Positions 619 through 61,190 of a DNA stretch of 64,000 nt are shown piece after piece. The position numbers and the translations under genes were made by a program. Source of the DNA: Owenia fusiformis (Eukaryota > Annelida > Polychaeta > Sabellida > Oweniidae); NCBI GenBank assembly GCA_903813345.2, contig CAIIXF020000008.1:22864822-22928821 (forward strand), written 5' to 3'. The notes beneath the pieces are model-generated. The model worked only from the letters and a program-made list of their open reading frames with translations, did no database searches and had not been told where the DNA came from. Numbering within the stretch: the stretch's first letter is position 1; the number at the start of each line of letters is the position of its first letter.

Positions 619-836
619 CTGACATAAAAATCCCGATTTGTGGTCTTGATTTCGTATTTGCCGTCGACATTTCATGTAGCATTAATCCAGACGACAAGGA
701 AAAAGTGCGTAGATTTCTGGAGTCTGTTGTAAGACGTATTCCAGTGCGTCCACCGTTCTCACAGGTCGGCATTATTTTGTTCTCGAAGACTGTCTACGAT
801 ATTGCTCAGCTCAACTCCTTCGTTCGTCGTGGACAA
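619..836 (+). CDS. Gene 1, vWA exon (N-terminal half of the vWA domain), gene continues off left edge
   Basis: Internal exon bounded by a pyrimidine-rich acceptor (ttttccag, 611-618) and a consensus donor (gtaagt, 837). It is 218 nt long, starts after one carried-over base and ends on a complete codon. The frame reads IPICGLDFVFAVDISCSIN and onward, the first beta strand of a von Willebrand A domain with the metal-site motif DxSxS (DISCS). It continues as FSQVGIILFSKTVYDIAQLNS and ends RRGQ. vWA domains bind protein partners through a divalent cation, usually outside the cell. No start codon is expected here, because the exon carrying the signal peptide must lie left of the window, as it does upstream of the matching exon of the paralogue at 60973. 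Domain assignment is firm. Joining to 23822 is inferred from phase and domain continuity. Confidence 0.9.
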
Positions 837-1459
837 GTAAGTATATATTCAAAAATATACTGTATATTAAGATGTTTGATTCAAGTAAAACCGTTTATCC
901 CACGAATATCGTTTTATAGCTGTGGAGTTTTAAAAAACGATAAATGTTACAAACTTTAATGTAAAGATATTTATGTTTTTATTGTAATATGTAATTTGTA
1001 ATTATTACATGAGGGGTCCATAACACTCAATGCATACTTAATAATCTTCTAATCTTCATAATATACTAAGTATAGGATAAATTAGTTAATAGGGAGTTTA
1101 AGATTAGCGTAAATAACCCATTTACCTATACCTATACGTTGTTTGTTATTACACAAAGCGGTATTTTACCTAAGTTACAGGGTTTACGATACGTAATTAC
1201 CTATAAATGGCCGAAGATAGGTAATTCGAAAACGTATGTTTTTATCCAACAAATTATGTCATGTCTAAATCAAATATCATCCATTAAACTTTAAAATAGT
1301 AACAACAAACATTTCTCATTCAATCTGCATAGAAATTAAGTGGTCGAACACATTCATTGATGCGATAAACGATGCCATGTGATGATGCATGAAATTGTTG
1401 AGTTTACACATTCTTCATCAGTTTTGCTTATTGTAAATGTATGAAATCAGCCATTTTCT

Positions 1460-3229
1460 CGTTTATTTTTTATTTATTTATTTTATCCACCATATTTGAT
1501 GTGTTTAAATAAATTTTTACATTATTTACTTATAATTATAACATATGTATATGATATACAATTTAATTTTAGTTACAGACCAGATTCTGGTCTATTTATG
1601 TACATTTTATGGATGTAAACAGCAATTTGCTTATATTCCTCGACATCAAATATCTCCCCTGCACCAAAAATTGCTCCAAGAATCATCTCTTTTGGATAAT
1701 TTTGTGCTGGTTTGAAGATATTATATACAATTTCCAAAATATTTGATCTTAAAGCATCATGACCTTCACAGTCCAGTATCATGTGTGATAGTGTTTCTGG
1801 TTCTTTATAGCACATTTTACATAATACAGAAATTTTTCCGTTAGACCACCTATTGACATTAATCATTATGTTTCCTTCTCCCAACAGTAGTTTAACCACC
1901 GTCCTGCAACACTTCAAAATTCTAGGATCTAATTTAGCTACCTTCCACCATATTATAGGCTGGATGTCATGGGTTACAATTCTGAACAATGGCAATTTTC
2001 TTGACAATATACATTCAATTTGCCAGTTACGTAATTCAAATAAATGTACCTTACTCTTCACAATATTTTTCCACTGTAATTTTGAATAGACGCGTCCATT
2101 AAACATTTCATAGACCATTTAAGGATGAATACTAGCTAGTATCATAAAGTTTGTTTAGCGAGCCTGGATATAACCAATGTTCTGTGAGGCAGAGAATATC
2201 AGTTTTATCGAGCAAAGAGTTTAAATAAGGGCTGCTGGCATTAAAACCATTCGCATTCCATGCAGTTATTGTAAGATTATCTGCTGCTTTCATATTTTGG
2301 TAGTTACTATGTTTATTGAAAGTACTGGGTGTTAGGAATAGGGACGATGTAAGCACAATTAATGATAATGTTGTCAGAACCATCATTCCTCATAACATTC
2401 TTCAACGCAGGAATCACGCCAATCAATGTAAGAAGTATACTCCTTTGAAGCATGGTAAATGTTGTCATAATCAATATCATCAAGCCTGGGAGCATTATTA
2501 CGACGGCCTTTTGGCACCCATTCTCTGCATTGCACTGGAGAAGGCCAAGCAGAGGGGGACATTGCACGTTCAACATTGGATTTTGGCACAATAATTTTGC
2601 ATCCAACTCTATACTGGGACACTTTATTATGCACAACATAGCTTTGCATAATACGTATATTTTGATTTTTAGCATATGCTGACACCTGGTGTTTGATATC
2701 TTCATTAGTCTCACCCTCACATATCTCAATGTTCTCCAAGTATAAGGTAATACCAGATTCAGATTTGACACCTCTGAGAAACCGTGTTGAAGAATTAGTT
2801 CCGCTAAGGCCACGAATCGTTGGCTTACTGGCAGTTGACCTTAGATCGAGACGAGGGGGTGGGTTTTTTGGCCTTTTACGTCGTACAACATCTGACCAAG
2901 TTTCTTCATCTGCTACAGGATCAGACACAATGACTTCAATGGGATTCTGCGTTGGGTTTCGTGCGCGCTGCGTAGCATTAGGCTTTTTTGAAGTTTCCTT
3001 TCCTGGTGCACGGGGTTCAGGAGCTGATGCATGGCGACCGCGACCCCTTCCCCTACTAACGCGAGGGGAGATCACAATACCTGAGGGGATATCCTTATGG
3101 CAGATATCATTAGGAGGGACAGCAAGGGAGGGATTAGCCTTGGTAGGAACATCCCTAGCTGGTGGATCCTTTGAACTTGATTTTTCAATAAGCTTTGCAG
3201 GGGCAGGTGGTATTGGGACGTGGTTTTAA
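1460..3229 (-). mobile_element. Internally deleted LINE: ORF1, start of endonuclease, then RT C-terminus
   Basis: Minus-strand element with an (A/T)-rich (AAATA)-like tail at about 1460-1490. ORF1 is open from 3229 to 2383. It starts without a clear ATG and has an Arg/Gly/Pro-rich N-terminus and a C-terminal region (GITLYLENIEICEGETNEDI and onward) that looks RRM-like. ORF2 starts at 2386, overlapping the ORF1 stop as ATGA, and reads ITAWNANGFN and ILCLTEHWL, the first endonuclease motifs. The endonuclease breaks off near 2135. From about 2118 to 1573 the frame is the ORF2 C-terminal region with a CKMC...HMILDC zinc knuckle. Most of the endonuclease and all catalytic RT motifs are missing, so the copy is dead or non-autonomous. 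It lies antisense in the intron of gene 1. Confidence 0.8.
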
Positions 3230-4298
3230 TTGTTTAACTTTACTATTTGGTCACTCTCATTGCTGGATCATGCTAGAAATTTAATATTCGCCTTAAAGTG
3301 TGCGCCCGACCTGGCTACGTATATAACAGAGTTTATACTGGCGTATTAGACTAGTTCATTTTTTATATGTGTGTGAAAGCTTTCTCTTATTTGCGTTTTT
3401 TTCGTTTAGTACGGTTTTGTTATAATAACCGAGGTCATATAACCGGGATAAAACAATGATTATCGTTGACTGCGCACACACAAAACATTTACGTCGAGTG
3501 AACACAACAGTGTTATTAAAAACAACAAGCTTTAGAATACAAAGCCCAGTAGCGTGATAATAAGCTGTACACTACCACTGCTGCATGTACATATTAGGGC
3601 TCATAAAGAGTGGATAGGGAGGTTGTGTTTGTCACTTTTAAATTTTACATTTCAAAATTGCCATTTTACATGTCATAATTTCTTGGTTTCATTCGATTAG
3701 CCGATCAAAACATTGTAAAACAATAAATCGTCTGTTACGTATAATCAATTTTGTTCAGTTTTGATTAGTTGTCAGAATGAAGTTAGTTACGTTCATCTGA
3801 ATCCATGTTTCAAAACAAAAATCATATTTTCTTCACTTCAAAATACTTCAGTGAGATGAATGCTCGGAATTGTCGTTTGCAATAACTTATTGTATTCGTT
3901 CTTTTATCTACTCGATAGAAGCATTTAGTCGTACATTTGATGCCAGGTCACCTTCTCGCGTACCTCTTTGGGAGCCCCACATTTGTCTGTACTCATGGAA
4001 GTAAATTCCCTGGTGTAGCCGAGAGCCACAAACTTTCAACAGGTTCGAAATGGCCAATTTCTCTCATATATACTCATATTTTATTAATTATCACCTACAA
4101 AGTATTGCTAATAACTATATGTAATTTCAATAAGGAAACTTATCTGGCTACATGTAAATTCAATATCAACACTAGATGTTCGCTCAACACGTCCTGGCTT
4201 ACCTTGTGATGACAAACCCTGGGTTTTCGCTATTTATAGTTTATCAACACCTGGACGCATGCGCATTTTATAGTTTATCAGGCACTTTAAATGCTCAA

Positions 4299-4400
4299 TT
4301 TTTGATACAGGGTATATCCCTCGGTAAATACAGTATATCAACCCCCGGTCCCCTCGGGTAGATATATTGTATTTCCCTCAGATATACCCTGTATCAAAAA
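4299..4400. repeat. Small fold-back repeat
   Basis: Two arms of about 40 bp (4299-4340 and 4360-4400), both starting TTTTTGATACAGGGTATAT when read inward, around a GC-richer centre. It resembles a very short MITE or a hairpin. No coding content. Confidence 0.6.
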
Positions 4401-4426
4401 CCTCCCATTTAATAACCTCTACTATT

Positions 4427-4790
4427 TTTTCATGGCCTGAGTTCGTCGCTAACATGCTAAATATAAGAGTTAGCTGACGTCTGGGAGTCTGACTTACCTT
4501 CTAAAGGTTAGAACCCGAATCTTAATGAAACCATATCACCTTTGTTGCGTCGATGATGATGCATAAACACCCTCATCTGGGACTAGCTAACGCTATAAGA
4601 AACTCACAACAAATTAGTGGAATCAATATGCTAAACAATACTGAAGTAAGGCTGACACAATATGCAGATTTATATTCTTTATCCAATACGAGTGACCAGG
4701 TAAATTATTATGCAGAATCATTTTGTGTTGAATTGACTAAGGGTTGATTTGACTTGGGGTTGTATTGACCAGAGACCTTTCTTCAGAGCA
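4427..4790 (+). mobile_element. First copy of a 230-bp repeat ending in a LINE reverse-transcriptase remnant
   Basis: About 220 bp (4427-4650) recur at 4838-5066. The 3' part reads LANAIRNSQQISGI and then TEVRLTQYADLYSLSN, the strand before and the YADD catalytic loop (here YAD-L, with one Asp lost) of an L1/Tx1-type reverse transcriptase, followed by a short degraded stretch to about 4790. The upstream part of the repeat (4427-4570) is not recognisably LINE. Confidence 0.6.
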
Positions 4791-4837
4791 AAATCGTGCC
4801 AGGCATATATTCATGACGCGTGAAATATATACTATTT

Positions 4838-5066: not shown

Positions 5067-6525
5067 CTCTTCAACTTTATCTGGAATGGAAAAAGAGACA
5101 AAATAGCAAGGAAAATACTAATGGCTGAAAAGGAAGATGGGGGACTCAACATGTTACACCTCAGCTCATATGCGAAAAACCTGAACCTAAAATGGATCAA
5201 AAGATTAACAGATGAGGAAAATCAAAGCAAATGGAAAATCCTATGGAACTATTATCTAGAAGATATAGGAGAACTTATATGGAAGTATAATTTGAAAGTA
5301 GGAAACCATGAGATAACCTCAAAACTTAAACTTACATCTATCAAAAAGATATATAAAATTTGGTGTAAACTGAACCATCAAAACATTTCCGAAATTGACA
5401 ACCCATATAATCAAGTAATATGGAACAATGAATGCATAACGTTTCAAGGGAAGAAATTACAAAGACCAGAATGGCAAAACAATGGGTTAATATACTTACA
5501 CCAACTGTATGAAAACAAGATATTCATCCCATTCCAAGACCTGGCTGTAAGATACAACCTCAGAAGAGATAATTTCCTATACTGGTATCATGTCATCAAC
5601 TCCATACCACATGTTTGGAGAAATAAAATGAGTCAAACAAACGAAAATACATCAGATAGCTTCATAGATCAACTAAAGAAGCTAACCAACAAAGATACAT
5701 ATAAAAGGCTGAAGGGAAAACACATTGAGTGTCTCAAAAAACAGCAGAGCAAGTGGACAGAAAAAATAAACCTACAAGATGATATAGAATGGAAAAACAT
5801 CTACCTAACAAATGAAAGGGCAACATCAGACACAAAACTGAAATACTTTCAATACAGACTTTTAATGAGAGCAATTTATTTTAATGAGACATTACACAAA
5901 ATGAAAATTAAGAATACTGAGATATGCCAAATGTGCAATAACGAAACAGACAGTATTGAACATGGACTATATAGATGCAATGTGGTCCAAACGTTTATAC
6001 AAGATGCAATAAATATATGCAGAACTGAGGATGCGACTGAAGCTCAATTCTTCCTTGGAGATACTTCATGTCCCAGCCGAAACCTACTGCTCCTGCTTCT
6101 GAAACACTATATATATATAACAAAGCTAAAAGAGACAAAACCAACAAGACAAGGTTTCACAAACTATTGTACTCTACAAATGAAGACAAACAAAGCAACA
6201 GCATACAGTCTAAGTAACAAGCAAGCTTTTATAAGTAAATGGGAGCTTGTGGAAAAAATAATTTTGCATCCCCCTTAACTCCTCACTTAAAATTAATTTT
6301 GGACAATTCCCCTTACCTGCCCTAGCCTCTGACATTATATTCTTCAATTCTTCAATGCTTTTTTTACTTGCAAAGTTATATTAGTTTCAATTCAATTAAA
6401 TCAAAAGAATGATCACATGATCTAAAGACCATAAATGATGTAAAAGCAACGCATTGTAACTAAATATGATATATATATGTAACTTTAAAATGAAATAAAA
6501 AAAAATAAAATAAAAAAAAGAATAT
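5067..6525 (+). mobile_element. L1/Tx1-like LINE, ORF2 C-terminal part with 3' tail
   Basis: Open frame from 5067 (LFNFIWNGKRDKIARKILMA) to the stop at 6278, about 400 codons. It begins with the FIWNGK motif that follows the RT domain in L1/Tx1 elements, then GGLNMLHL, and carries the C-terminal knuckle CQMCNNETDSIEHGLYRC. A 200-bp 3' UTR ends in an A-rich tail at about 6487-6522. Endonuclease and catalytic RT are absent. Since the preceding repeat ends inside RT sequence just before YADD, the two parts look like one element with an internal deletion. The long clean frame suggests a young insertion. Confidence 0.85.
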
Positions 6526-7140: not shown

Positions 7141-7271
7141 ACTAGAGATCAAAGATTACAAACAATATTAAAGAGGACCCCTAAAGACGAGTGTTGAGAG
7201 CCCGCCGTCGAGGGAAAATAGTCGGCGTTTTAGACGTCGCTTCAAAATGGGGCTGTTTAAATTCGATTTTC

Positions 7272-14896: not shown

Positions 14897-16427
14897 TGAG
14901 TTGGATTAACACAATATCACGAAAATTCATAGGATGTTCTATTTTTCCCATAGTTCACCTCTAAAACTAAACAAAGCATATCAAAACAACATCCATTCAT
15001 TCATCCCCGTGATGTCATGAAATCACTATGTAACAAAACACATCATATTGGTGGTAGTTTTCAAATCCCTGCCAAAAGGTGATATCTGTGAAATATTTTC
15101 CGTATTCCACAGATATCACTTTTTCCACGCATTTGCAAAATATCATAAATATGTTTTCATGTTTTTTCATGAGGATCGTTTGATCATTTCTATTCTTTTT
15201 TTTAGTTCTATTCTTATCTTCTTTTTATTATTTCATCAGTATCATTACATATTCATATTACATAATATATATATATATCATAAGTCAATATCAATCATAC
15301 AATCATTATAACAATTTACAATATTATAAGTTTCTTAGTCTCATCTCATGTTCTAACATACATACAACATTGTAACTATATAGACCACATTTGTATTTGC
15401 TTATTACATGTTTTTCAACCATTAACATGAGATTAATTTTCCTTTCAACCCTTTTGTCCTCGTCCTTATATCCAAAAATAATATCGTGCTTAAATTCTAT
15501 CTTTCTTTTCAATTTGAGGAAGCATGTGTTATCTATTATTTCCCAGACTCGTTTTATTTTTCTACATTCTATAAAGAAATGATGCATCCTTTCAGGCACA
15601 GAAATTACAAAGTTCATCATTTTTAATTTTCATTTTGAATAGCAAAACTTAAGTTGGATATATTCTGTGCAATATTTTAAATTGAAGTGACTTTAACATT
15701 GGTTCTTTTATATTTCGAACATTAAGCCAAATGTCTCTCCAACACAACTGATTATATGAATCATTCCAGCCTCTTTCACTGATTGGAGTTTCCGATTTAC
15801 GTTTTAAGAAAGATTTTCTGATCATTTGAGCATTTGCTTTATTTACATCAATTTCATTGAATGTAGTTTTAGTGTTATCATCATCTTGTTTTACAATCAC
15901 TCTTATAAGACTTTGTCGGAGCATATTGTATTCAATGAAAAAGTTAGGGTTTCTCCCAATTTTCTCCTTTAATACATCTGGATTTTTTATTTTTCCTGTA
16001 CTTTTATCAATCACATCTGAGATTAATTTTATTCCAGCATTTTTCCATGATTTAAAGTGTAATTGTTTATTTTGGTAACATATACTCCTGTTATTCCATA
16101 AGTAATCATTAGTACAAATGTTTTTAGTGATATTTACTGTTTTATTGTTCAGCCATGATTTTGATAAGAACGAGTAAAATGTTGGAATATTTTTGTTTAC
16201 TTTTAAGTCTTTATATTCACAATTGTACTTGAACAAGTTTTTAGAATGTCCCATTTTACTCAAATAAAAATTCATAATTGCTTTCCATTTTTGATCATTT
16301 TCATTGTCATATAGTCTTTTATCCAGGTTAAAATAAGTGAAGTTTGATATAAATTGATATCTATCATATTTAAGCCTCCATTTAAAATATCCTGCCTAAT
16401 TACATTTCTTTTTACTTTTTCCACAGC

Positions 16428-17822
16428 CTACCATAAGAATTTATGCAATATATTATTAATTTCATCTAAATATTTCTGTGGAGCTTTAAATACCATTAAC
16501 ATATGAGTGATTTGGGAAGCCATTAAACTTTTAATGACTGTTACTTTTCCAAACAATGATAAATTTCTTTTGTTCCATGATTGAATGAGACACTTGATTT
16601 TTTCAATTTTTGGCTGCCAATTTTCGTCGAGGTCAGAAGATGAACCTGAATTGCTAAAATAAGCTCCTAATATTTTAATTTTTTGATCTTTACCAATTTT
16701 CCAGTTTAGATGAAATGGCTTTTCTGTTTTTGTTTTACTTCTTCCCAACCACATTGCTTGAGTTTTTTCCATGTTTAGTTTAAGGCCTGATACTTTATAA
16801 AATGCAGTTATCTCGTTTAACAAAATTGGAACTGAATCTTTTGTCCTTAAAAATAATGTGGTATCATCTGCATAAGAAGTTAATTTTATTTCTGTTTTTT
16901 GTTTATCCTTTAAACATATACCTTCAATGTCTTTATTTTGCCTTATTTTACAAGAAAATATTTCTGTTGCAATTATAAATAGAAATGCACTGAGAGGGCA
17001 GCCCTGTCTCAGACCTTGTTCTAAAGGTACCCAACTACTGAGGTATCCATTATTTGAAATAGCTGACACTGCATTTTTGTTTAAAACATCAATCCATCTT
17101 ATAAAATCTTCACCAAAATTATATACTTTCAACATTTTCATGACATATTTCTTAGAAATTGAGTCAAAAGCTTTTGCATAGTCTAATGCTATTATAATAC
17201 CCGTTTCATCTTCAAAATCAATATAGTTAATTAGATCATCAATAATTTTCAAGTTAAAATGTGACCCTCTTCCTTTAAGGTATGCTGTTTGATCAGAATT
17301 TATGAGTTTTATAATAACCTTTTGCAACCGTTTGGCAAGTGCTGCTGCCCCAATTTTATAATCAACACAAGTAAGGGCAATTGGTCTATAGTTTTTGACT
17401 TTGGCAGAATTTAACATTTTCCCTTTGAGCAATAGTATTATCATTCCTTTTCGTGGCGAGCTGGACAATTGACCTATTTCAAAACCAAAGTTTAAAGAAT
17501 TAACAACAAGATGTTTTATTTTGATCCAGAACATTTTATAGAAAGCGGCGGTGAGTCCATCTATACCTGGACTTGATGTGTTTTTCATATTCTTAAGGAC
17601 TTCCTTACATTCAATATCATTAATTTTTCCCTCACAATAAGACTTTTCTTCATCATTTAAATGTGGGATTTCAATGTCATGAATAAAATCATCAAGTGAA
17701 TAAGTAACATCATCATTTTCAGCATACAAATTACAATAGTATTCATATAAATTTTGCATTACACAATCAATTGAATCGTTTTTTGTACCATCGTCTTTTT
17801 CGATACAGTCAATTGTCTTCAT
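16428..17822 (-). pseudogene. LINE reverse transcriptase domain
   Basis: A single open frame of 464 codons holds the canonical RT blocks: SPGIDGLTAAFYKMFW, LLLKGKMLNSAKVKNYRPIA, motif A IALDYAKAFDS, motif B GLRQGCPLSAFLFIIATEIF, motif C TSYADDTTLFL (YADD at 16863-16874) and SGLKLNMEKTQAMW. Both catalytic aspartates of YADD and the motif A aspartate are present, so this segment alone would still look active. It is separated from the endonuclease and C-terminal parts by frameshifts, so the copy as a whole is dead. Confidence 0.9.
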
Positions 17823-18019
17823 TTTAGCTCAATTTCTCAAGTGTTAAAAAATATTTAGTATTTTTCTCGCCCTGTTGAATCCAATCAATCTTTGACCTAA
17901 GTTGTGCGCCTTTTGCTTGTGAGACATTTTCAAGATCTAGTTTAATCTGTAGTGATTGAACATGTTTTTGGTTTTCATCATTTGGCACCCTAGCTAGTTT
18001 ACTACATGCAGCTTTAAGT

Positions 18020-18961
18020 TCAATATTCAAATTGTTTGTATTCTGTTTGTGCTTTTCTTTTTGAATAATTAATGGAGATGTTTCGAATTTCACACTTAAT
18101 GGAATCCCACAATATTTGAGGGTTGACAACATGTTGATATTTTTCATTCATTTCTACAATACAGTCATTAATTTTCTGAACATACTCTTGATCATTTAAA
18201 ATATCATTGTTCAATTTCCACACTCCGGGACCGCGTTTGGTTTTATTCAACTTAAAGTCTGTTATCACTGGGCGGTGATCAGATTGTAAGCATTGCCCTA
18301 ATTGAACATTATCTATCTTTCGAGCTAATTTTTCAGTGGAAAAGATATAATCAAGCCTTCTTGCAATAAACGGGTTTTGTTTACACCAAGTGAATTCTTT
18401 TTCATTATCATGTTGTGACCTCCATGTATCAACTATTTTGCATGTATTTATCATTTCATTGAATTTCCTAACAACTACCTCATTATGTTTTTGCCCTGAA
18501 ATAACATCTAATTTGTTGCATACTACACAGTTCATGTCTCCAGAAATAATATATTCATTTTGACCTATATTTTCATGAATTGTTGCTTTTAAATTTTCAA
18601 AGAATACTAGTTTCTCAGCATCTTTGTTAGGTGCATATACATTGACAATAAACATTGTGTTATCATCTATTTTAACCTTTATCATTTGAATTCTGTCACT
18701 ATTTATTAAAATTTCATCTACAACTGTCACTTGGCTGTTTTTATTAATAAGAATGATTTGCCATTTTGATTTAGGGGAGGAACCAGGTACAATATATAAA
18801 TCTCCACCCCATTCTGTATGCCATTTTTCTTTATCTTCATTTAAAACATGTGTTTCTTGTAAACAAATTATATCACAATTGGTCTGTTTAACCCAATCAA
18901 AAACGATTTTTCGGTCACGTTTGTTTCTTAAGCCTCTACAATTTATTGAGCAAACTCTCAT
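18020..18961 (-). pseudogene. LINE apurinic-type endonuclease domain
   Basis: The open frame starts MRVCSINCRGLRNKRD and keeps the exonuclease/endonuclease/phosphatase blocks: CSINCRG, CLQETH, IVNVYAPN, ISGDMNCV, RRLDYIF and SDHRPVI. All expected metal and catalytic residues (N, E, D-x-N, D, S-D-H) are visible. The frame shifts near 18030 into the linker ending RSKIDWIQQGEKNTKYFLTL, the standard GEKNTKYF block of L1 elements. Confidence 0.9.
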
Positions 18962-20540
18962 ACAGACATTGGGTTGGATATTTATGTATTATACTTGTTT
19001 AGATACGAATTTTTGACTTTGAAGATTTTTTCGAGTTTTTTTCTGTGCTTGGGGGTGTAAAGTTTGGCGGTCTTTTTTTCATGTTACCTAACAGAGCGGA
19101 ACAGAGTTCAACTATGGGATAAAGAATAGGTACATAATTGAATTACCACTCCAAAAATATTAAATATGAGGGTTTAAAGAAAGAATATTGAATATGAGAT
19201 TCAAAAAGACAAGTGGCCTCATGTCTCACATTACCCAAACCCCAGATCCTCGATGTCATATATACTTGTATACTGTATATCAGTGTTATTTACTGGGAGG
19301 ATTAAATATGGAGTGTATAGCAATGGTCAATACGATATTTCCAGATGGATATTTTTTCCCTAGAAGCGGAACCCAAACTCAGTCATGACATAGAAGCTAA
19401 CTATTGCAATTAATAGAAATTTGTTGTTTTTTTATTATATTTTTGTGTTCTATATTTGAGATGAAATAATATGAGATTCATTTCTACAAGAGAATGGAAT
19501 GAATGTGAACTTGTTTATTGAACTATACTCCTTTTCTGAATAAATAGAACAACATTTTATCCAAGCCAATTAAGAAAACCAAGGCCAATGAGTGTAATTT
19601 ATGCCCAGTTAAACTAACACAATAACAACTTTTTGTCTAAACTCACTTATTATGTAAGAATGAATTGTATTACTGTTTACTGCATTAAATGTCAAGTATA
19701 CAATCTGTATTTAATTTCAAATGCCTATCTCACTTATCAAAGGTATACAAGAAATGTTATTTTGAAACAAATTCAGCACAACCAAAACCATGTCCACATA
19801 ACATGACAAATCCAAGATGGCTGCCACAATTTTAGATCCATGCACATGTGAAGAAGTTAGAAATACACATGGTCCACAAGTCCCATCCCAAATAAAATGG
19901 AAAGTTTAAGGTTTTCCCACATATCAACTCTATTCCTATATACATTCTATTTGTGGTAAGGCTTGTGATCTAGGTAAACTTAGCATGTTCATGTACCTCC
20001 TATCCTCTGAAGCTAAAAACAGAAATAGTTACTTCAATTGAGAAAAATGAATCTTATGGGCTCCATATACATTTTGAGTGGCTGTCCGGCTCAAGTTAGA
20101 TACTACTGATAATCTGAGATTCAAAATTATGTCAAGTTTAGTCCTCAGCCTCTCATAACGGATAACTTCGAGGTAATTGTCTTGTTACTGCAAAAATCTC
20201 TATTTCTTCATCACAAATCTACCATCTTTTGCATCTGTCAAAACCCTTCATTTCATGTTAATTTTCAGACTTTTGCTTGTGCCATCATTAAATATATATA
20301 TTCAACTTGTTATTCAGAATATTTTAAGAACTTTTCATGAATTTTTTTATTTTCACACTTTTGAAAAAATGACTAAGAGAATGGCCTCTTAATGACATGT
20401 CCCCTTTGTTATCATTAACCCATCTGTTTATTTGCATTGAAAACTTAGTGTATAACTATATAAACCAAAAGGAGGAATAACACTTAACACTTATATATGG
20501 GATAGTATATAATGTGTATAATTATAGAATATAATATAAT
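18962..20540. other. No gene recognised
   Basis: About 1.6 kb of AT-rich intron sequence between the antisense LINE and the CG-rich repeat region. Only short chance frames occur. Any 5' part of the LINE (promoter, ORF1) would lie here but could not be recognised. Confidence 0.5.
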
Positions 20541-23821: not shown

Positions 23822-23947
23822 CTTTTAAAAGTAATTAAAGAAATGGAAATGACACCAAAGGAATGTGCCACAGCAACATATCTGGCCCTCAAATACGCAA
23901 GAGAAGTTACCTTCAACGAACAGAACGGTGCTCGCAAAGGCAAGAAG
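23822..23947 (+). CDS. Gene 1, vWA exon 2 (middle of domain)
   Basis: A 126-nt exon (42 codons, phase 0 at both ends) after a ttttag acceptor and before gtaatg. It reads LLKVIKEMEMTPKECATATY and then LALKYAREVTFNEQ. In vWA domains a threonine follows the DxSxS strand by about 70 residues and completes the metal site; the ATATYLAL stretch matches that position and helix. The exon is too short and lacks an ATG suited to stand alone, so it is read as the continuation of the exon at 619. Confidence in the exon is high. Continuity across 23 kb is inferred. Confidence 0.88.
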
Positions 23948-24062: not shown

Positions 24063-24353
24063 AAAGTGTTAATTGTCGTTACTGATGGAATGACCTATCC
24101 CGTGGATAAGAAAAATGAAACATTGAATATGGCTAGAGCCAACATAAGAGCGAACATAACATCATATGTAGTTGCATGCCCCAATTTAAAAGCAGGAGGA
24201 TTGATTGGACACGACGAATGGAACAAAATCGCAACTGGCAATGATCCAGATCCAGTAGGCGTCATGGATCCAAATGTATTTGCACTTGATACTTTTGATC
24301 AACTCAGAGAAATCATCAATGAAATCGTCAACAAAGCTTGCATGACGATGTAA
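24063..24353 (+). CDS. Gene 1, terminal vWA exon with stop codon
   Basis: Starts after a ttttag acceptor (intron 23948-24062, 115 bp) in phase 0 and runs 96 codons to TAA. It begins KVLIVVTDGMTYP, the beta strand with the TDG motif that supplies the last vWA metal ligand. It then reads RANIRANITSYVVACPNLKA, HDEWNKIATGNDPDP and DTFDQLREIINEIVNKAC, the usual last strands and C-terminal helix of a vWA domain. The protein ends five residues after that helix, so the vWA is its last module. With the missing N-terminal exons modelled on gene 2, the full protein would be near 340 residues. All expected metal-site residues (DxSxS, T, D) are present across the three exons, which suggests a functional gene. 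Confidence 0.92.
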   Translation, partial: KVLIVVTDGMTYPVDKKNETLNMARANIRANITSYVVACPNLKAGGLIGHDEWNKIATGNDPDPVGVMDPNVFALDTFDQLREIINEIVNKACMTM

Positions 24354-24510
24354 AAATGAAAATGACACTTGTGCAGTTGGATCTGAAGAAAATACGAAAC
24401 TTGTTAACGTAACAAAAATTATTTGATGAAAGACGTTTTTGATGTTTTGTGTATCTCATTACAATATCGGACGTATTATTAAATAAATATTTTTCCGAGA
24501 GTAAACTCAC
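24354..24510 (+). promoter_or_regulatory. Gene 1 3' UTR with polyadenylation signal
   Basis: AATAAA lies at 24482-24487, 129 bases past the stop, in AT-rich sequence. Cleavage would be expected 10-30 bases further on. No competing signal was seen closer to the stop. Confidence 0.65.
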
Positions 24511-28692: not shown

Positions 28693-28919
28693 AATCATTA
28701 GATGTTTATCCTGCGTTCTCTATGTACTAGTGGCGACATCCTTTATTGGATCAAATCCCAATTTAAGAACACGACAACGAGTTATGTAATCGTATATATT
28801 GTATATAGAAAACCATCAAGATTATGTAAGCGTATACATAAAATTGGTTAGTCCAGCTACAAGCCCTTTTGACCCCCTAGACACACGAGTAACATAATAG
28901 TATGTGAAAAAATCGTCGA

Positions 28920-29330
28920 CATTTTATAATCCTATACATAAAACTTCGTATAGTACACGATATCGAGTTATGCAATCGTACATAGAAAATCGTCGAAATT
29001 CTATAATCGTATACATAAAACTTCGTATAGTACACGATATCGAGTTATGCAATCGTATATAGAAAATCGTCGAAATTCTATAATCGTATACATAAAACTT
29101 CGTATAGTACACGATATCGAGTTATGCAATCGTATAAGAAAATCGTCGAAATTTTATAATCGTATACATAAAACTTCGAACAGTACACGATAACGAGTTA
29201 CGTAATCGGATGTGGAAAATCGTCGACATTTTATAATATCGTATACATAAAACTTCGTATAGTACACGATATCGAGTTATGTAATCGTATATAGAAAATC
29301 GTCGACATTTTATAATCGTATACTAAAATC
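28920..29330. repeat. 77-bp minisatellite, about five units
   Basis: The string CGTATAGTACACGATATCGA recurs near 28945, 29023, 29101, 29177 (diverged) and 29254, each followed by GAGTTATGCAATCGTATA and GAAAATCGTCGA. Period is 76-78 bp. Units differ by scattered substitutions. No spacer-like unique sequence, so it is not a CRISPR. Confidence 0.85.
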
Positions 29331-33149: not shown

Positions 33150-34143
33150 AAAGTTTTAAACTAAATGAGAATGAATTGAAGTGTTTACCCACCTTAATAC
33201 ACCAAATGATGCATGCTTGGCATTATTGGGGTGGAGAGGAATATTATATAATATTGAGCTATGTAAGCTAATGTTCTGTTTCAACATATTGTCCTTGGGT
33301 GCCAGTAATATTTATAGAAACATTTTTATATTTAGAGTGTTTGAATGTTTAGTGAATCATCAAGCAGGTGGTATTACTAAAGAGTATATTACTATTTTAA
33401 ATAAATATAAATTGTTGGACAATGTTGTGAGCTTCATGTACAATGGTTGTATAAATATGTCAAAGTTTCTTTGGAAAAAAATATGTAAGAACAATGTTAG
33501 GGATTTTGAATTTAATAGTTGGAGACAATCTTTATCAATGAGTATTCAACTTCAAGATTTTAGAACTGTACAGTTGCATGTTGACATTCCTTCTATCTGG
33601 TATTACTTAGGACTTAAACATCCTGAACTTAAGCAAAAATGTAATATGATGATTAAGTTGCTATGTGGTATACATAATTTAGAAATTAACAACCATGGTT
33701 TACCTAGAGAAAATAGGGAATGTAAGAAATGCAATAATAACTCATTAGAGGATCTTTATCATTTTATTATGGGTTGTGATAATTATGTTGATATCAGAAA
33801 GATTATGATTGAAAATTTGATTAAGGAAAATCCTACATTTAAGATACTTTCATGTGAGATATTATATAACATTATTTTAGGCATGGAGTTTCCAATGAAA
33901 AATTGGGATAATGTTTTGATTATTTCATGTAAGAGTGTATCAATTATGTACCACAGAAGATTTTTTAGCTGATTTACCAATGTATCCATTGTTATTTTGG
34001 GTCTAAATTTTGCCCATGTATACATGTATAATTCATGATATTGTAATTGTCTAATTAGCATAAGGTATAGTGTAAGATTGTTTTAATTGTCAAACTATTC
34101 TTCAGTATTGGAGGCTAAATAAATAAATAAATAAATAAATAAA
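33150..34143 (+). mobile_element. LINE 3' end, ORF2 C-terminus with AAAT tail
   Basis: The open frame 33181-33972 (263 codons) begins in the segment after the RT domain (AGGITKEYITILNKYKLLDN) and carries the knuckle CKKCNNNSLEDLYHFIMGC. It ends in a tail of AAAT units at about 34120-34143. The layout matches the C-terminal segment at 2118-1573 (CKMC...HMILDC, similar W/F-rich spacing), so both may come from one LINE family. 5' truncated. Confidence 0.8.
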
Positions 34144-50443: not shown

Positions 50444-50944
50444 TATAAAGATACCCAGCCTATCAGGGATGTAGAGGAACTAAAAGAAAGAATAGACACG
50501 TCGCAAAAATATCGCGCCCGTGTGTTAAATAGGGTGTTGCATGAATGTAACTTTAATTCTTCGTAATAAAAGATAATATTCTAATTAGCTAAAGTAATTT
50601 ATCATTTAAAAGCTACTTCATAAAGTTTTCAAATTAGGTATACTCCTTTCACAATTCTTGCTCGTTTTTCTTAAAAAAAGTTCTTTACCCCAAAATTAGG
50701 CATATATCCGCTGTGGACACGTTACATTTTGAATAATTTTTCATCTTTAAAAGCTCATAACTCGGACAATATTTGACTATTATAATTTTTTTAGTCTAGA
50801 TAAAGGTAGATGCTGGAAGTATTTTTTCAAAGGATGAATTCTAGTAAGCGTCCCAAATTGTGACGTCATGGATTTTGAAAAATAGAACCTGTGGACAGCG
50901 ATCTTTTTTGCTAATTTTTTGTTACCTTCAATTTTTCAGATGTA

Positions 50945-52042
50945 CGAGGGGTGATCAATAAGTAATGGACGCTTTTTTACACAGATACTTTTTATAGACC
51001 AATCCCTTTGATTTTCCTACCAGTGATACATCATTCAATTATCTATCAATTCTGAAGATTTGAAGACAAAATATATAATACATATTGATATATCCTTATT
51101 TCCGTGAAGGAGGTACAGGTACCCCGGGACCGACATTTACGTCACATATTCAGTTTTTAGCCAGTTTGGTAAATTTCAGTTAGATTGGAACTTTTTATAT
51201 GCAACAAGTGTTGTGTTGTTTGAATTTTTTGCTGACTGGTAACACATAAACAGAAAGTATTGTGATGTCATAGTGTTGTATGGAAGGGGTTTGCAGGTCA
51301 ATTTGAGAAAGCATTGTGGAAGAAAGGGGTGGTGAGAGAAGGGAACACCCTTCTCCATATGGACAATGCACCTGCCCACAGATCTCAAAATGTTCAGAAA
51401 ACAATATCCCTGGACCTCAAAATTGACCCCTTGGCCAATGCACCATATAGTCCAGATCTGCTCACATGTGACTTGTTTATTTCTATACTACTTATTTCTA
51501 TAGAGAAAGGACGCAGGTTTATTGACATTGATGAATTAAACATGATAAATTAAACAACCCGTGCAACTGCATCTTGCTACCATGTCAGAGAATGGATTCA
51601 GCCTTGTCTCACAATCTTGAGTTAAGAGGATGAGGAATTATGTACATGTAGTACTTGATGGAACTTATTTAGAGGGCCCTGTGGAATGAATGTGGCATGA
51701 ATACCACATAGTGATGATAAAATATTCCAAATTAACTATGGCAAAACAAAATGGGGTAATTCACGACCATAATGGTTTGTTTTGTTCAGCCTGCATTTAA
51801 CTGCATTGCATGTTAAACAAGCTAAAATAGCTTCAGAATATGTGACGTAAATGTCGGTCCCGGGGTACCTGTACCTCCTTCACAGAAATAAGGATATATC
51901 AACATGTATTATATATTTTGTCTTCAAATCTTCAGAGTTGATAGATAATTGAATGATGTATTACTGGTAAGAAAATCGAAGGGATTGGTCTATAAAAAGC
52001 ATCTGTGTAAAAAAGCGTCCATTACTTATTGATCACCCCTCG
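50945..52042 (+). mobile_element. Mariner-like element with 207-bp TIRs and transposase relic
   Basis: Arms 50945-51151 and 51836-52042 are inverted copies of equal length starting CGAGGGGTGATCAATAAGTA. TA flanks both ends. Between them, a plus frame (51314-51553) reads LLHMDNAPAHRSQNV and APYSPDLLTCDLF, the second and third catalytic aspartate blocks of mariner transposases with about 35 residues between them. The N-terminal DNA-binding part and first aspartate are missing. The copy is dead, but its ends are well kept. Confidence 0.85.
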
Positions 52043-52980
52043 TACATTAGCCTAAACAAAAAATACGATACCAATTTTTAATAAATCATGTATGATTATT
52101 TTGCTCATAAACTTTAGTTTATTAATTATTAGTACAATAACGTCATTTCTGCGGGCAATATATTGAACTATTGGACCAAGGGCCGCAGGCCCAAGGTCCA
52201 ATATTTCACTATTTTGCCCGCAGAAATGACGTTATTACTATTATTACCACCGTTAATGCCCAGGGCTGAAATAGCAAATTTGAAATAGAAAATCTTACGC
52301 ACTGAACGATATCACTTTTCCCGGGAAACATGGCCGGGCGGATAATGTCATTATTGCCCGACTAAAGTCATTAACGCCCGACACAATATTGCTCACGTCA
52401 ATATAGCAATTTAAATGCCTTCTCAACTAGTACTAAAACCCCTAGAACAGGCCCTGCAAGGTGGTAATAATAGCTGATTTTGTTTCCAAGAAATGTATGT
52501 GCTTTCTGTTGTATGCGGAAAAGTGGAGGACGAAAGGTTTTCAAAATTCATTAAAATAGGGCGAATTTACGCCATTCACCTATTTTCAAACACAGCAACA
52601 CATATATTTATTTTACCTAAAATATCGTGTTTTATGATGCTCATAACCCATTTTTAATATATATACGATATCAGAGTTATTCGTCTTGAATATTTTTAGA
52701 TATAGAGGCAAATGTGGAGGTCGAAAGGATTTCCATATGTGTAGGCCTATGTTTTTCTCAATAACGTCACATTCTGTCGTGTTAAAAAGCAAAAATGTGT
52801 AACAATACGTGCGCGAACATTTTGCGACGTGTCATAACTATTAGCTGAATGGTAGCTTCCGCATACATCCATCAATATGTCATCAACCAAATGGTTTCCA
52901 CGTCTTAAGCGAATAATCCAATCAGAGGGTGTGTCTACTGAGCCATATTTGGACAGACTGAGGAAGAAATGAATTTGTTT
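52043..52980. other. No gene recognised
   Basis: About 940 bp of intron. Near 52190-52245 a small inverted pair surrounds GGCCGCAGGCCC (CGTCATTTCTGCGGGCAATA against TTGCCCGCAGAAATGACG, 52141-52230). No frame of note. Confidence 0.5.
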
Positions 52981-53730: not shown

Positions 53731-53876
53731 CATCCAAAATATGCAGCTCCCGCTCTTATTCGCTGTATTGGTCGGACTCTGTGTGGTGATCCCAAGTGCA
53801 GCAGATCTGAGCGCCCTTTTCAAGGAAGCGCACGAGGCCAACAAAAAGGAAGCTGCCGCTGAATCAAATTTTCAAG
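53731..53876 (+). CDS. Gene 2, first coding exon: signal peptide and start of the mature chain
   Basis: The acceptor acgtttttag ends at 53730 and ATG is at 53741, with context AAAATATG. The exon ends at 53876 before gtaaaa, leaving one base of the next codon. It reads MQLPLLFAVLVGLCVVIPSA and then ADLSALFKEAHEANKKEAAA. The first 20 residues are a clear secretory signal: short n-region, leucine/valine core, and small residues at the likely cleavage point (PSA|A or SAA|D). After it comes a charged, probably helical stretch. The carried-over G joins AT of the exon at 54457 to make an Asp codon. This is the true start of the gene; the equivalent exon of gene 1 lies outside the window. Confidence 0.85.
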
Positions 53877-54456: not shown

Positions 54457-54702
54457 ATGAATGCAACCCGAACAACGTGAAATACCAATTCGATCATGAC
54501 AAAAGTGATTTCGAACAAAGTGATTGCAACTATTACGAATGCACATCAGCGAAGAAGTTTGAGAGGAAAAGTTGCCCCGATGGCAAAGGTGTCAGCGATT
54601 TCTTCAAATTAAAGTACAAGATGTATGGTAAAGGACAGGCATACCCTCCTTGTACAAGGGATGTACCTGCGTGTGAGAGATCTTTGGCTGACAAAGGAAT
54701 CA
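54457..54702 (+). CDS. Gene 2, chitin-binding-like (peritrophin/CBM14-type) exon
   Basis: A 246-nt exon between attgtag and gtatgt, entered and left in phase 1. The product holds six cysteines spaced C-x20-C-x4-C-x10-C-x25-C-x6-C. Around the second to fourth are CNYYEC and SCPDGKG, which match the aromatic residue between C2 and C3 and the CPDG turn of CBM14 peritrophin domains. The family usually has x5-6 between C2 and C3 and a shorter C4-C5 loop, so this is a divergent member. Such domains bind chitin in cuticle, gut lining or shell matrix. With the signal peptide before it and vWA after it, an extracellular matrix role is likely. The fold is supported by cysteine pattern only. Confidence 0.75.
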
Positions 54703-57344
54703 GTATGTGCTCACTTTTCTCATCTTAATATTATAAATCGAGGTTGTCTATTTTCTAAAATCAAAAGGTACACATCTTCAGTGAAATATAAATATTTAAA
54801 CACTAAGTAAGTTTCTTTAACGTATACATAAAAATATTGGGTGAGACTTGAGATAATGTATGCGGCGCCAGTCAAAATTGAAACTTCTGATTGGGTTCGA
54901 AGCCGAGATGCCCGGATATGTCCCAGCAAAAGCCGGAATTCACGTGATTTTTCACGAAGAAGGGGCGGAGTTTAAGCGAGATTCATCGAGACTTCTTCGT
55001 GTCAATCGTGTCAATCCCTGCATTGCTTATTGTTAACTCCACCTTTTTGCCCATATATGGAGATGGAGATGCCACTTGCGAGCGTGAACAGTTCAGTCTA
55101 GAAATAGAAATTTCTTAAGCGATGTCTTTCTTCAATTTTTCTACACGATATCTCGATAAATAGTGGACATATTTGTACCATTCTTTCGTCAAAATGAGGG
55201 TATCGCTGGAATACATATTTCCAATCTGTTGGTCAATAGATTTATTCATTGATACTGGCAGGAATTAGATCGTAATAAACATGCTAAAATTGTAAAACTT
55301 GGAACGTTTGACAGTAATCTCCGAGTAATGTATGAATTGCATCGGGAGAAAGCAGGAGAAAAGCTGGGACTGAGTCTGTTGTGTGGAGTTTGCAAAGCAA
55401 TCCCGGATATAAATGACGTCATCTTAGCAGTTTACCATGGTTTCGAAAGTGATATATTTTTGTGTCGTAGATGAGTTTGAATTATGTCGATTATTCGATT
55501 GTTATATATAAATAAACATCGATCTTCGGCGAAGATAAAGTAAGAACAACATATATATCCGAGAAACATGTTGGTAAGTACAGTATTTCATTTATAATGG
55601 CAGAAAATCAAATTGAATCGAAATCGAATTTTCAACTTTTTCAATTTTTTTCGTTCGATTATTTTGATTTTCAATTTGACGTTTTTACATTCTATCTTCT
55701 TCGTCCTGCGGGACTATACTAGGCATAGGCCCGGAACATGTATAGCATTGAGTCATATTCACTTATAGAACATGCTGTAAGCTTTATTTCTTTACATTTT
55801 TACGGGCCTATGCCTGGGCTATGACTCTAGGCCTAGACTACTAGATCTATAGGACTTAGACTAGCCTAAAGCTAGAGCCTTAGATCTAGCTCTTTCAGAG
55901 TCTGTGACTGATATGTTAGAAGAGCCTTTAGAGCCCCCTATCAACCGCTTCAAAGTTGTGTTAGTGTCCTCCTTGCGAAAATCGAAAAAAATTAAAAGGT
56001 GCTTCTGTGCCGAACAGCAAATTCTCATTATACATTGGGAAGCTACTCTTTACCAAGAAACCAAAAATGGAATTTTTGACGGAAAGACATGACGTACAAG
56101 TCAAAATCTCTGAATCTTGCTAGGTACATGACAGATAAAGAGAATTTAAATCCTGATCGGCAAAAAAGCGGCTAATAACTAACATATTTTCTCAACAAAA
56201 AGCACTGATGTAGCTCACATTGGGAGATAGTAGTAAGCACTTGAAGTTGATTTCAGTAGATCAGTTACACCTGTCATGATTTCAAGGAAAGACACAAAGT
56301 ATCCGTCAAAAGAGAAAAGCTTACATAAATGCGAGCAAAATCTGCAGATTTATTATAGCTATTGACTTCTCGAATATGTTGAACGCACAACTCTAAACAA
56401 TACTTGAAATTGAATAAAATTGACAAAATATGAGAAGACACAGTCTAAAACCTAACTGGGAGAGCTGCCATTGTTTGCCCGGAAATCTTCAGAGATTTTG
56501 ACTGGTAGGCTACTTTGTGTCTTTCCATCAAAATTGCCATTTTGGTTTCTCGCTGGGTAATTCACAGATGAAGAGAAATCTTGATTGACAAAAATACAGC
56601 TGATAGCTAACAGCTTTTCTTAAACAGAAGATAAAGGAAGATATAAAGGAACCTGTTATGATTTTGAAGCGGGTGATAGCCGATAGGGGGCATGTTAAGG
56701 CTGTAAGTAGAGGGTGTAGCCGAATAAATCTAACCCAAATAGAGTTTAACACATCTCAGTATAGGCAAAATTAAAATTCATTAAAGTTTCATTACTTTAG
56801 CATGGGTACATTTGCTGGCCTTCTAATATTTTGCCAATAGATTTGTTAGGCTTGATTGCAAATTCTTATGAAATATAAGAGTGTATGGTTTCAATGTTCT
56901 GTACTCCCGATATTTTTCGCGTGCAATTTAGTTTCGTGCTTTTCGCGATTGTGTAAAAATCACGAAAATTAATAGTCGCGAATATCGCCAATTAAAGGCT
57001 GAGGTGCAACATGCCATTGACTAAGATCTAGAGATTGTAAATCTAATCCAAAGTATATGATATTGGGTAGGTGTAATTACTGTAGATAAGATAAATTAAT
57101 TTTGAGGATTCAGAGAATAATGGAAGTTAAACCTTTGATATCCGCAAAATTTAATGGCCGCAAAATTGGTATTTCTCAAAATTCATAAAATTTAAACTCG
57201 CAAATTAACCAGTAGTACAGTATTTGCATGTGGAATAATTATGATATTGAGAGCATTGATGAAACAAATGCAATGAACTGATTTGATTGGCCAAGGGAGC
57301 ATTGGAATTTTGACCTGAAGTTCACATGATTGTTGCTATAGGCC

Positions 57345-57780
57345 TTATGATTTTTTGGAATTCCAGTAATACTATTAATGTCTATTATACTTATACAGTA
57401 AAACCTGTCTTATCCAAATGCCACCGCTACAAATTAAAAACATTCAGATTTAAACGTCTGATGACTTCGAGGTTTTTGCATCCGAAAGATTCTTGATTTT
57501 GAAAAAATATTATGCATTTTCACTTAATATTACTAGCATTGTAGGCGTTATGATTTTTTGGAATTCCAGTAATACTATTATACTTATACAGTAATATCTG
57601 TCTAATACTTATACAGTAATATCTGTCTAATCCAAATGCCACCATGACCAGTTAAAACACCATGACCAGTTAAAAAAAACATTCAGATGTGGAGGTGATC
57701 GGATTTCGAGGATTTTGCATTCGCAAGATTCTGCATTTTAAAAATATAAATGCATTTTCACTAAAAAGTATTAAGATTAC
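57345..57780. repeat. Tandem duplication of about 200 bp
   Basis: Units at 57345-57547 and 57548-57780 both start TTATGATTTTTTGGAATTCC and contain ATACAGTAA-A-CTGTCT and TCCAAATGCCACC. A third, diverged copy lies at about 59290-59400. The CAGTAAAACCTGTCTAATCC string resembles the end of a pogo/Tigger-type element, but no paired end was found. Confidence 0.65.
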
Positions 57781-59873
57781 TTTTGACCGCATAGCTTTAT
57801 GACATTCCAAAATCCAAATCGAATGCTTGAAAGGTAAAACAGAAGTGTGCAATCAGAGATGATAGATACTATTGCATGAGTATATGAAGGCCATGTGTCA
57901 ACTCTTCGATTGATAATACGCCTCGAAATAAACACCCACTGGCTTGGGAAAGCTATTTTCCCTCTTAATAAATGCCTGTCCCCTTGGAAAAATGTTTTCA
58001 ATTTCCCTCTTAGTCTTAATAAAAGCCAATGGCATTTATTTTGAGTTCTTTCTAATAAAGGCCCTGTGCAAAATAAATGCTCAGTGGGCCTATATGTTCG
58101 TTGAATTTAAAATTTCCCCTTCTACTCAATTTTTATAAATGTTTTATGCATCAGTATGTTGCATTTGGAGACACAAATAAACTCTTAAAAGGAAAATATT
58201 TTCTCTTTAGTATGTTAACTTTGTCTACAAATGCAACATATTAATGTGAAAACATTATAAAAAAAATGGAAGGAACTGAAAATCAGGAAAACATTTTTGA
58301 AAAAAAATGTTGATGGGGTCTTTGCACCTTCCCTGTCTCAATCTCCAATTTTTTTATCATCTGTATGAGTACTTTTCCTTTAGATAATGCATTGGCCTAA
58401 CATACACACCTTACATTTTCAGAAAATTTCTGCAATTCAACATATGACCGTCTAAATTCTGTTGCGAAACCTTTAGTATTCTTTCAAGAAATTTCCTGCT
58501 TACATGAAAGTCTTTTACATTCTGTTTTTTTTAATGTAACATAATGGCTGATACCAATATTGTTCAAAGTTGTATATGTTTACACTATGGAACTAATCAT
58601 TCTTTGAATTGAGTTCGATTCCTGAACAACTGGATATTTGACTAAACATTCCTTGGATTTGATTTGGTTTGATGAAGAGAAATCTTGACTGACAAAAATG
58701 CAGCTGATAACTAACACATTTTCCCAAACAGAAAATATAAAAAAAATTTAAAGTGAGCACTTGATTTCAATAGTTTAGTTTCACCTATGCTTTTGAAGCA
58801 GGTGATAGCTGATAGGTGTCATGTAAAGGCTTTAAGTACATGGTATAGCAATAATTAAAGGTAAGAAGGTACTGTTTCATTCATATTTCTTGGTTTTAAA
58901 AACATTTAATCAAATAAGCTGGAAATTTTTTTGAGAAATGATATGATGGTGAAAGAAATAGATACAAAATTATAAAAAAATTATAATTAGCGAAAATTGA
59001 TATCCGCAAAATTTCAAAATTGCAAAATTGTGAAAGATAACAGCATCAAATATTAGTGGCAGTACAGTATTTGCATGTGAAATAATTATGATATATTAAT
59101 ATAATAATATAATAATTGATGAAACAATTGCAATGAACTGTTTTGATTAGCCAAGGCCAGAGCATTGGAATTTGAACTAAAGTTGAGTATAATGTTATTG
59201 TATAAATTAAAAAAATAATTATAGAGACTTCTTACAAAGTTGATCTTCATTTCAAATAGCTGAGAATATTTCCCAAAATAGATTGACTAGGCCTTCAGAT
59301 TTTTTTGAATTTCAGTATTACTATTACTCATACAGTAAAACCTGTCTAATCCAAATGCCACCGTGCAGTTAAAAACATTCAGATTGGGAGGTGTTCGTTA
59401 TCACAATAGATTATAATTATATCATTGATAATTTAGAGTTTATTCAAAGATGGCAGCAGCATTCTCAGAACCTAACAATCAGAATCTCATTAATCTTTTG
59501 TTCACGTTAGTTATTTAAACTTTATATTCATATATAGATGGCAGTTCTTAAATATATGATAGACACCAATAATTCAACATCATAATTTAACCTTTTCCAT
59601 TAAATATACCCTGTATCAAGCACAGAAACGTATTTACACCCTTTACTAAAATGGCAACCCCTGTATCACGCACTTGTTGTAAATATAAATATTTATCTTA
59701 TTTTTTGAAGGAATCAATTATGACATGTACGAGAGTTGATCAAAGGGTTCTGTTCTGTATTTGTGGTAGTTTCATTTTGTATAAAAATAATAAATAGATT
59801 TGACAAGTAAAATAAGATTAGCAAAGAAAGAAACATTGGAAGTGATTTAGTTAGCATATTCACTGCAGATCCA

Positions 59874-60356
59874 CTCGATTACGCTGGAACCGTTTCGGTA
59901 ACAAAATGTCGGAACGTCGAAGGCACGATTTTTCACACGTTGTGGGCAGAATTCCAACGACATTTTTATCACAAACTTGTATCAGTATCATATGATTAAG
60001 AAAATGTACACATTTGCGAACAAATAGTTCAGAAGACAACGAAATCGTCGATTTAATCCCCCACTAAAGTTACCGAAATGGTAAATCGAAAAACAGTTAA
60101 GATCTGCACTTTTAACCCTTACCGTTTATGTAACTTAAGTGAGGAATTAAATCGACGATTCTGTTGTCTTCTGAGCTATTTTTTCGCAAACATGTACCTT
60201 TTACAAAGCATATGATACCGATACACGTTTGTGAGAAAAATGTCGTGGGGATTCTGCCTACAACGAGCGAAATAAGCAAAAAAGAAAAATCGTACCTTCA
60301 ACGTTCCGACATTTTTGTCACCGAAACGAACCGTTTTGATAACCAGCGTAATCGAG
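59874..60356. mobile_element. Fold-back element with arms of about 200-225 bp
   Basis: Left arm starts CTCGATTACGCTGG (59874) and right arm ends CCAGCGTAATCGAG (60343-60356). Both carry AAATGTCGGAACGT, CAGAAGACAACG/AGACAACAGAATCGTCGAT-type and TTACCGAAA-like blocks. A spacer of about 60 bp separates them. No coding frame. Confidence 0.75.
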
Positions 60357-60972
60357 CGTATCACCAGTGATATTGAGACAACACAAAATTGAATGTTGCT
60401 CCTTATTTGTAGGTTAAATCATCCATTTTTTATACTTTTAGCTCAAAATATGACTGAAAGTGATCGCATGATCAAGCAAGTGGTTTAACATGCTCTGTGA
60501 CCTCATATTATCTTTATAATAACATTACAAAACTTGTTTCATTAGATATGTATACCGGTGGCTGACCATGATAAACAATTTCAAGGTTTTTGGATCACCT
60601 GTCCCTGGCCGAAACGTTTCTTACTTATTTATGCAAAAGGCGCATTTTATTCATCTTGGATTTCCGAGGTATGATGTGTTCAAATCAAACTGGGAAACGA
60701 GTATGCATTTTATTTGGACAGTGGCAAGCTGGGGCAAAGTCGATAAAAGCACACATTGTGGAACATAACGGATACCAGGGAATATACCCCATTTTGTCAT
60801 CGTCCAAAAAGTCTTTCCTCCCTAACACTCCCAAGCTAGGTTATTGAGACACAGACTGAGGTCCATTTGAGATAAAAAGCATTGTTATTCACCCTTAAAT
60901 CTGCTCCATGCGTTTACCAGATTTATAGATATCCAGTTCTGCAAAATGCGACTATTTTTTAAATCTTTCTAG

Positions 60973-61190
60973 CTGACATCCGAATCCCGATCTGTGGTCT
61001 TGACTTCGTATTCGCCATCGACATTTCATGCAGCATTAATCCACAAGACAAGGAAAAGATTCGAAAATTCCTCATGTCTGTAATCAGGCGTATTCCCGTG
61101 CGTCCACCTTTCTCACAGGTCGGCATTGTTTTGTTCTCTAAGTCTGTCTACGATATTGCTCAGCTCAACTCCTACATACGCCGTGGACAA
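60973..61190 (+). CDS. Gene 2, vWA exon (N-terminal half), gene continues off right edge
   Basis: Paralogue of the exon at 619-836, with the same length (218 nt), the same phase-1 entry, the same phase-0 exit and the same gtaagtat donor. The frame reads IPICGLDFVFAIDISCSINP, with the DxSxS metal motif, then FSQVGIVLFSKSVYDIAQLN and ends RRGQ. Sixty-one of 72 residues match gene 1, and most of the changes are conservative (V/I, K/R, T/S, F/Y). The carried A from the exon at 54457 plus CT makes a Thr codon, so the chitin-binding-like and vWA modules join in frame. The two later vWA exons (equivalents of 23822 and 24063) must lie beyond position 64000. Confidence 0.92.

Follow-up and report, generated by a model that had tools for sequence, protein, structure and literature searches.

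A 64,000-nucleotide stretch of the Owenia fusiformis genome (hereafter the window; contig C8, positions 22864822-22928821, in a 498-Mb assembly) carries exons of two genes, here gene 1 and gene 2, which belong to a large family of small secreted proteins arranged in tandem clusters, each protein pairing a six-cysteine module with a von Willebrand factor type A (vWA) domain. The family is probably an annelid one: the genome looks annelid and not molluscan, with three above-cut-off matches to the linker-haemoglobin domain PF16915, an annelid domain. Judging from the sequences, we put at about 0.5 the probability that these proteins are secreted extracellular adaptors, in which a CBM14-like end would sit on polysaccharide, a vWA end on a matrix protein, and the metal ion-dependent adhesion site (MIDAS) would be fixed by a disulfide. 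The secreted-type anatomy of gene 2, a single complete vWA domain whose MIDAS is intact, and the conservation and expansion of the family are read directly from the DNA. An original prediction, made from the window, had proposed a tandem pair of secreted chitin-binding-like/vWA genes: its observation is right, its architecture largely right, and its interpretation partly supported.

Both genes are read on the forward strand. In gene 2, exon 1 (53741..53876) opens with an ATG and encodes a signal peptide with a hydrophobic core and a short linker, ending at a phase 1 donor; exon 2 (54457..54702, phase 1 at both borders) encodes the six-cysteine, CBM14-like module, which has a profile match to CBM14; and vWA exon A (60973..61190, AG/GT borders, phase 1 in, 0 out) begins the vWA domain. 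The signal peptide and six-cysteine exons lie ahead of the second vWA exon, as first observed. The last two exons (vWA B and C, C8:22929310-22929435 and C8:22929547-22929837) fall outside the window, 0.5-1 kb past its right edge, and were recognised by our own vWA profile and their splice borders. The spliced product is 338 aa long (signal peptide, six-cysteine module, vWA), in agreement with the compact architecture of about 340 residues that had been foreseen, and it matches Pfam VWA over nearly the full domain (97.7 bits, E 1.2e-27, positions 1-172 of 174). At E values up to 0.1, VWA, VWA_2 and Sec23_trunk are its sole matches, and laminin G is not matched in that profile search.

Gene 1 has the same three-exon vWA domain: exon A (619..836; AG/GT borders, phase 1 in, 0 out) carries MIDAS loop 1 (DISCS), exon B (23822..23947, phase 0 in and out) MIDAS loop 2 (ECATAT), and exon C (24063..24353) the third MIDAS residue in VTDG, the closing cysteine and a TAA stop (24351-24353), exons B and C again being recognised by our vWA profile and splice borders. 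A likely poly(A) signal follows (AATAAA, 24482..24487, read from the sequence, its role inferred). These two exons, and those of gene 2 beyond the right edge, are added here to the original prediction and complete both vWA domains. The two exons A, whose likeness was the starting observation, are each 218 bp long, in the same phase and identical at 61/72 residues, and these half-domains score 43.7 (gene 1) and 44.6 bits (gene 2) against a Pfam VWA cut-off of 23.8. A whole-genome search with exon A of gene 2 returned itself at E 1.2e-43 and the gene 1 exon at E 2.1e-39; given these values, and a ratio of non-synonymous to synonymous substitution rates (dN/dS) of 0.33 between the two domains, the pair is not a product of chance.

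Upstream, gene 1 has its own six-cysteine exon at C8:22839035, ~25.5 kb left of the window and 67% identical to that of gene 2, so that one of the N-terminal modules expected for this gene is in place. The other, a signal exon, was not found by a scan for hydrophobic open reading frames, by tblastn, or by a whole-genome search with the gene 2 signal exon, which matches only itself (E up to 1). More broadly, a convincing signal exon was seen in only gene 2, gene 3 and the C11 gene among 15 genes scanned, and both results tell against a secreted adaptor.

Paired cysteines at the metal site

The MIDAS is complete in genes 1 and 2 (DISCS, ECGT/ECAT and VTDG), and Pfam VWA (PF00092) matches all nine members that were assembled (9/9). 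Four cysteines are invariant across these nine domains, one near each end, one inside the DxSxS motif (DISCS, loop 1) and one two residues before the MIDAS threonine (ECGT, loop 2). Counted over the 44 family vWA domains in which both loops could be located (further vWA matches in the genome lie outside this count), the two loop cysteines occur together in 38, together in 2 more but with the loop-1 cysteine shifted by one residue and the MIDAS broken, and are both absent in 3; none has only one, and in the remaining domain (C5:1.922 Mb) a splice site interrupts loop 2, so that it could not be scored. The count excludes gene 5 of the cluster described below, its loop-2 exon not having been found. 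By comparison, 0/11 ordinary vWA domains from the same genome carry a cysteine at either position, and in the C12:4.97 Mb gene the absence of the loop-2 cysteine was predicted ahead of reading its letters. Both terminal cysteines are kept in the three genes that lack the loop cysteines, and the pairs therefore behave as loop-loop and end-end.

Some features of these data weaken the case. One of the ordinary controls has a cysteine at the adjacent position (DCSGS). Most members were picked by a query containing DISCS, so the loop-1 cysteine is partly selected for, although the loop-2 cysteine lies outside that query. In addition, because the three genes without loop cysteines form one clade (97/84 in a 76-column tree), their joint loss amounts to a single event, and repeated independent losses were rejected on the same tree.

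At C8:21.34 Mb, two adjacent six-cysteine/vWA genes have a broken MIDAS (DVCTL and DTCTL) and have kept the cysteines of both loops.

The solved sequences closest to the vWA domain are those of collagen VI alpha 3, the mussel byssal protein PTMP1 and integrin I domains, all of them extracellular. Neither the alignment printed for collagen VI alpha 3, which is partly shown, nor that for PTMP1 has the loop cysteine pair. PTMP1 (4cn8) is, like the Owenia proteins, an invertebrate matrix-type vWA protein, but it has two vWA stretches and, in its printed alignment, no cysteine at either MIDAS loop position.

A disulfide across MIDAS loops 1 and 2 can reasonably be inferred from this pattern. That the bridge marks a class of vWA domains whose metal site is locked in one affinity state, used in clade-specific six-cysteine/vWA adaptors, is a larger claim, to which we would give somewhat less than even odds. 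In searches of open-licence literature we saw no paper on this architecture or on the cysteine pair, and it is the paired cysteines at the metal site that constitute the new point here.

Expansion and selection in the family

Extension of the contig places the two genes in a cluster of six (C8, 22.839-23.000 Mb, ~160 kb), with three forward-strand genes followed by three on the reverse strand, so that the cluster does run past both window edges and does hold further copies, as had been suggested. Evolutionarily, the vWA domains of genes 1 and 2 are separated by a dS of 0.37 and a dN of 0.12 (210 codons), the source of the ratio quoted above, and purifying selection acts between them. Six gene pairs gave a finite dN/dS, of 0.23-0.64, while four pairs involving gene 3 were saturated.

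The window pair had been taken for a local duplication. However, gene 1 is closest not to gene 2 but to a pair of C7 genes (vWA exons at 39.28 and 39.31 Mb), with a dS from gene 1 of 0.26 and 0.34 to the C7 genes vs. 0.37 to gene 2. In a tree built on 76 columns only, the four genes group together (96/86), and among them gene 1 joins the two C7 genes (100/74). As far as these sequences tell, the window pair is more than a simple local duplication. In the C7:39.28 Mb copy, the six-cysteine exon reaches a stop without the usual end or donor and vWA exon A lacks its first residues; this copy is possibly decaying. Elsewhere, at C1:37.84-37.86 Mb, vWA domains whose scores are equal or nearly so follow one another in an array at ~1.9-kb spacing.

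The same expansion lends itself to an alternative that we consider unlikely, yet the strongest of those weighed here, namely a lineage-expanded family with a role in recognition (immune or gamete surface) and not in structural matrix, in which the six-cysteine module would bind protein or microbial glycan and tandem copies would diversify binding. The many genes, in tandem clusters on several chromosomes, would suit such a role, as would the weaker constraint between the two C7 copies (dN/dS 0.64 against each other), a six-cysteine module without the CBM14 spacing, and the broken MIDAS of the two C8:21.34 Mb genes. Positive selection as a pair average, however, is seen in none of the six finite pairs, and both the MIDAS and the cysteines show strong conservation across the nine aligned domains and in most of the 44.

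The six-cysteine module and its vWA exon

The six cysteines of the upstream module are invariant in 18/18 aligned members, with the consensus C..C-YY-E-C...Y...CPDG-GV...PCT...C. With CBM_14 (peritrophin-A) domains the module shares six cysteines and a C-YY-x-C and CPxG core, and a profile-profile comparison (HHalign) of the family against the genome's own CBM14 profile gave a match of 88% over 28 columns, which take in the central C-YY-C hairpin. Shuffled controls reached at most 6.7% (40 with cysteines kept) and 7.5% (40 fully shuffled), and random halves of the family gave 78.6-90.4% (20/20). We read the module, from these comparisons, as a divergent CBM14-like domain and a putative glycan binder.

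There is also evidence that pulls the module away from CBM14. The spacing between the second and third cysteines is 4 in 18/18 members vs. 5 in 20/20 CBM14 units read from this genome, and because of this difference chitin binding by the module is a guess; the loop between the fourth and fifth cysteines is also mostly longer. Scores against Pfam CBM_14 (PF01607) stay below the cut-off, with no match for the gene 2 exon and weak ones in 2/18 members at E up to 10 (best E 0.17), such that the peritrophin-like label of the original prediction holds at the level of the profile-profile match and fails at that of Pfam. A single-sequence AlphaFold2 model had a mean confidence score (pLDDT) of 46.6 and was unusable. 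A PDB profile search with the six-cysteine alignment returned 0 matches at E up to 10. A search of NCBIfam gave a single weak match below its cut-off (14.3 vs. 81.25 bits). Scoring of 150 of 337 candidates gave at least 147 recognised CBM_14 places in the genome, none of which overlaps a six-cysteine place when the two sets are compared by eye.

Much less plausible than a recognition role is a different identity for the module, that of a single-domain VWC unit (SVWC, PF15430). The gene 2 exon does score 13.1 bits to SVWC over positions 1-63 of 66, its only other Pfam match being CTD6, a bacterial-type domain, but this lies below the cut-off of 27, a weak match is seen in only 1/18 members, and HHalign gives 0.09% to the genome's VWC profile vs. 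88% to CBM14. An SVWC or VWC identity was rejected. A genome search for SVWC was also without match, but its controls were equally silent, so that absence is not shown.

Three six-cysteine queries located at least 47 distinct six-cysteine places in the genome, a lower bound. In a one-to-one count that drew on 52 of the 96 vWA genome matches (those near six-cysteine places), 37/47 are followed on the same strand, no more than 70 kb downstream, by their own vWA exon, at a distance of at most 3 kb in 32/47 and of at most 255 bp in 8, compared to ~0.3/47 expected by chance if clustering is ignored. Direct reading of the DNA added four pairs (two at C8:21.34 Mb, one at C12:4.97 Mb and one at C3:13.741 Mb, where the place at C3:13741519 was seen to have its own vWA exon), bringing the total to 41/47. 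On the other side of the ledger stand the 6/47 places where no vWA was seen: C11:16.21 Mb (none in ~11 kb read downstream), C12:10.68 Mb (none in ~1.4 kb read downstream), and four that are unread (C1:44.18, C1:45.94 and C3:13.7505 Mb, and contig C364). A phase 1 donor follows the six-cysteine module in 10/13 cases examined, the exceptions being the C7:39.28 Mb copy described above, which runs into its stop, the C11 gene, and C3:4.66 Mb, whose end is possibly misplaced; the acceptor before the vWA exon fits phase 1 in 8/8 examined by eye.

Because the pairing recurs genome-wide, the six-cysteine exon is predicted to splice to the vWA exon, and this joining, which the original prediction had assumed, gains its backing from that recurrence. 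That the two exons belong to separate genes merely lying side by side is very improbable: the gap between them measures 6.3 kb for gene 2 and, for gene 1, 26 kb (the latter read except for C8:22840501-22854999), but most six-cysteine places can be assigned their own vWA exon, some of them almost adjoining, the phases match, and the gene 2 six-cysteine exon is free of stops between its borders.

The window also carries repeats. Within the gene 1 A-B intron, 15649-18988 (reverse strand) holds endonuclease and reverse transcriptase reading frames and is presumably an L1-like non-LTR (long terminal repeat) retrotransposon, judging by its motifs; shorter fragments lie at 1573-3225 (reverse), 5067-6278 (forward) and 33175-33972 (forward). 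The gene 2 A-B intron includes a 69-bp tandem repeat (10.8 copies, 63259-64000) up to the right edge of the window, and other tandem repeats occur at 28909-29328 (77 bp, 5.5 copies) and 61718-61895 (39 bp, 4.4 copies). Finally, 50940-52045 reads by eye as an inverted-end element plus a remnant that resembles a mariner transposase end.

Proposed function and comparison with known matrix proteins

If these proteins are indeed secreted adaptors, the CBM14-like end would hold chitin or a related polysaccharide, whether in the cuticle, a chaeta, the tube or the gut lining, and a matrix protein would be bound by the vWA end through its metal site. A first disulfide would link the two termini of the vWA domain; a second would tie MIDAS loops 1 and 2, holding the site in one affinity state.

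Related combinations are known from other lophotrochozoans. The original prediction had pointed to Pif/BMSP of molluscs, and the parallel holds in that these too are extracellular, fall into many subfamilies and join a vWA domain to CBM14 or CBM14-like modules; such units lie downstream of the vWA in 38/50 Pif/BMSPs, some with partial laminin G further on (PMC11291548). The Owenia module instead lies upstream of the vWA, and the protein stops at the vWA. Given the reversed order and the lack of a laminin G match, we do not file the six-cysteine/vWA proteins as Pif/BMSP. Among annelids, VWA, ChtBD2 and LamG domains are over-represented in the tube proteome of a tubeworm, where tandem duplication has enlarged several chitin-binding families (PMC8476170). 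The vestimentiferan tube proteins described there resemble the Owenia family in being extracellular, in their vWA or chitin-binding modules and in tandem expansion, but are built on laminin G, which is unmatched in the gene 2 product. In Lingula, shell matrix proteins with vWA and EGF domains are the most abundant ones (PMC4595640). By analogy, the six-cysteine/vWA proteins may work like Pif/BMSP and the tubeworm tube proteins.

If true, a locked MIDAS would put a built-in constraint in place of the conformational switching known from integrin I domains, and the paired MIDAS cysteines offer a simple, testable claim about covalent fixing of a vWA metal site. Mineralised shells are the best-known source of secreted proteins that combine vWA and chitin-binding domains; a large family in a probably soft-bodied annelid, with the domain order reversed and the chitin-binding-like module divergent, would help to tell whether shell matrix proteins arose from an older chitin-matrix toolkit.

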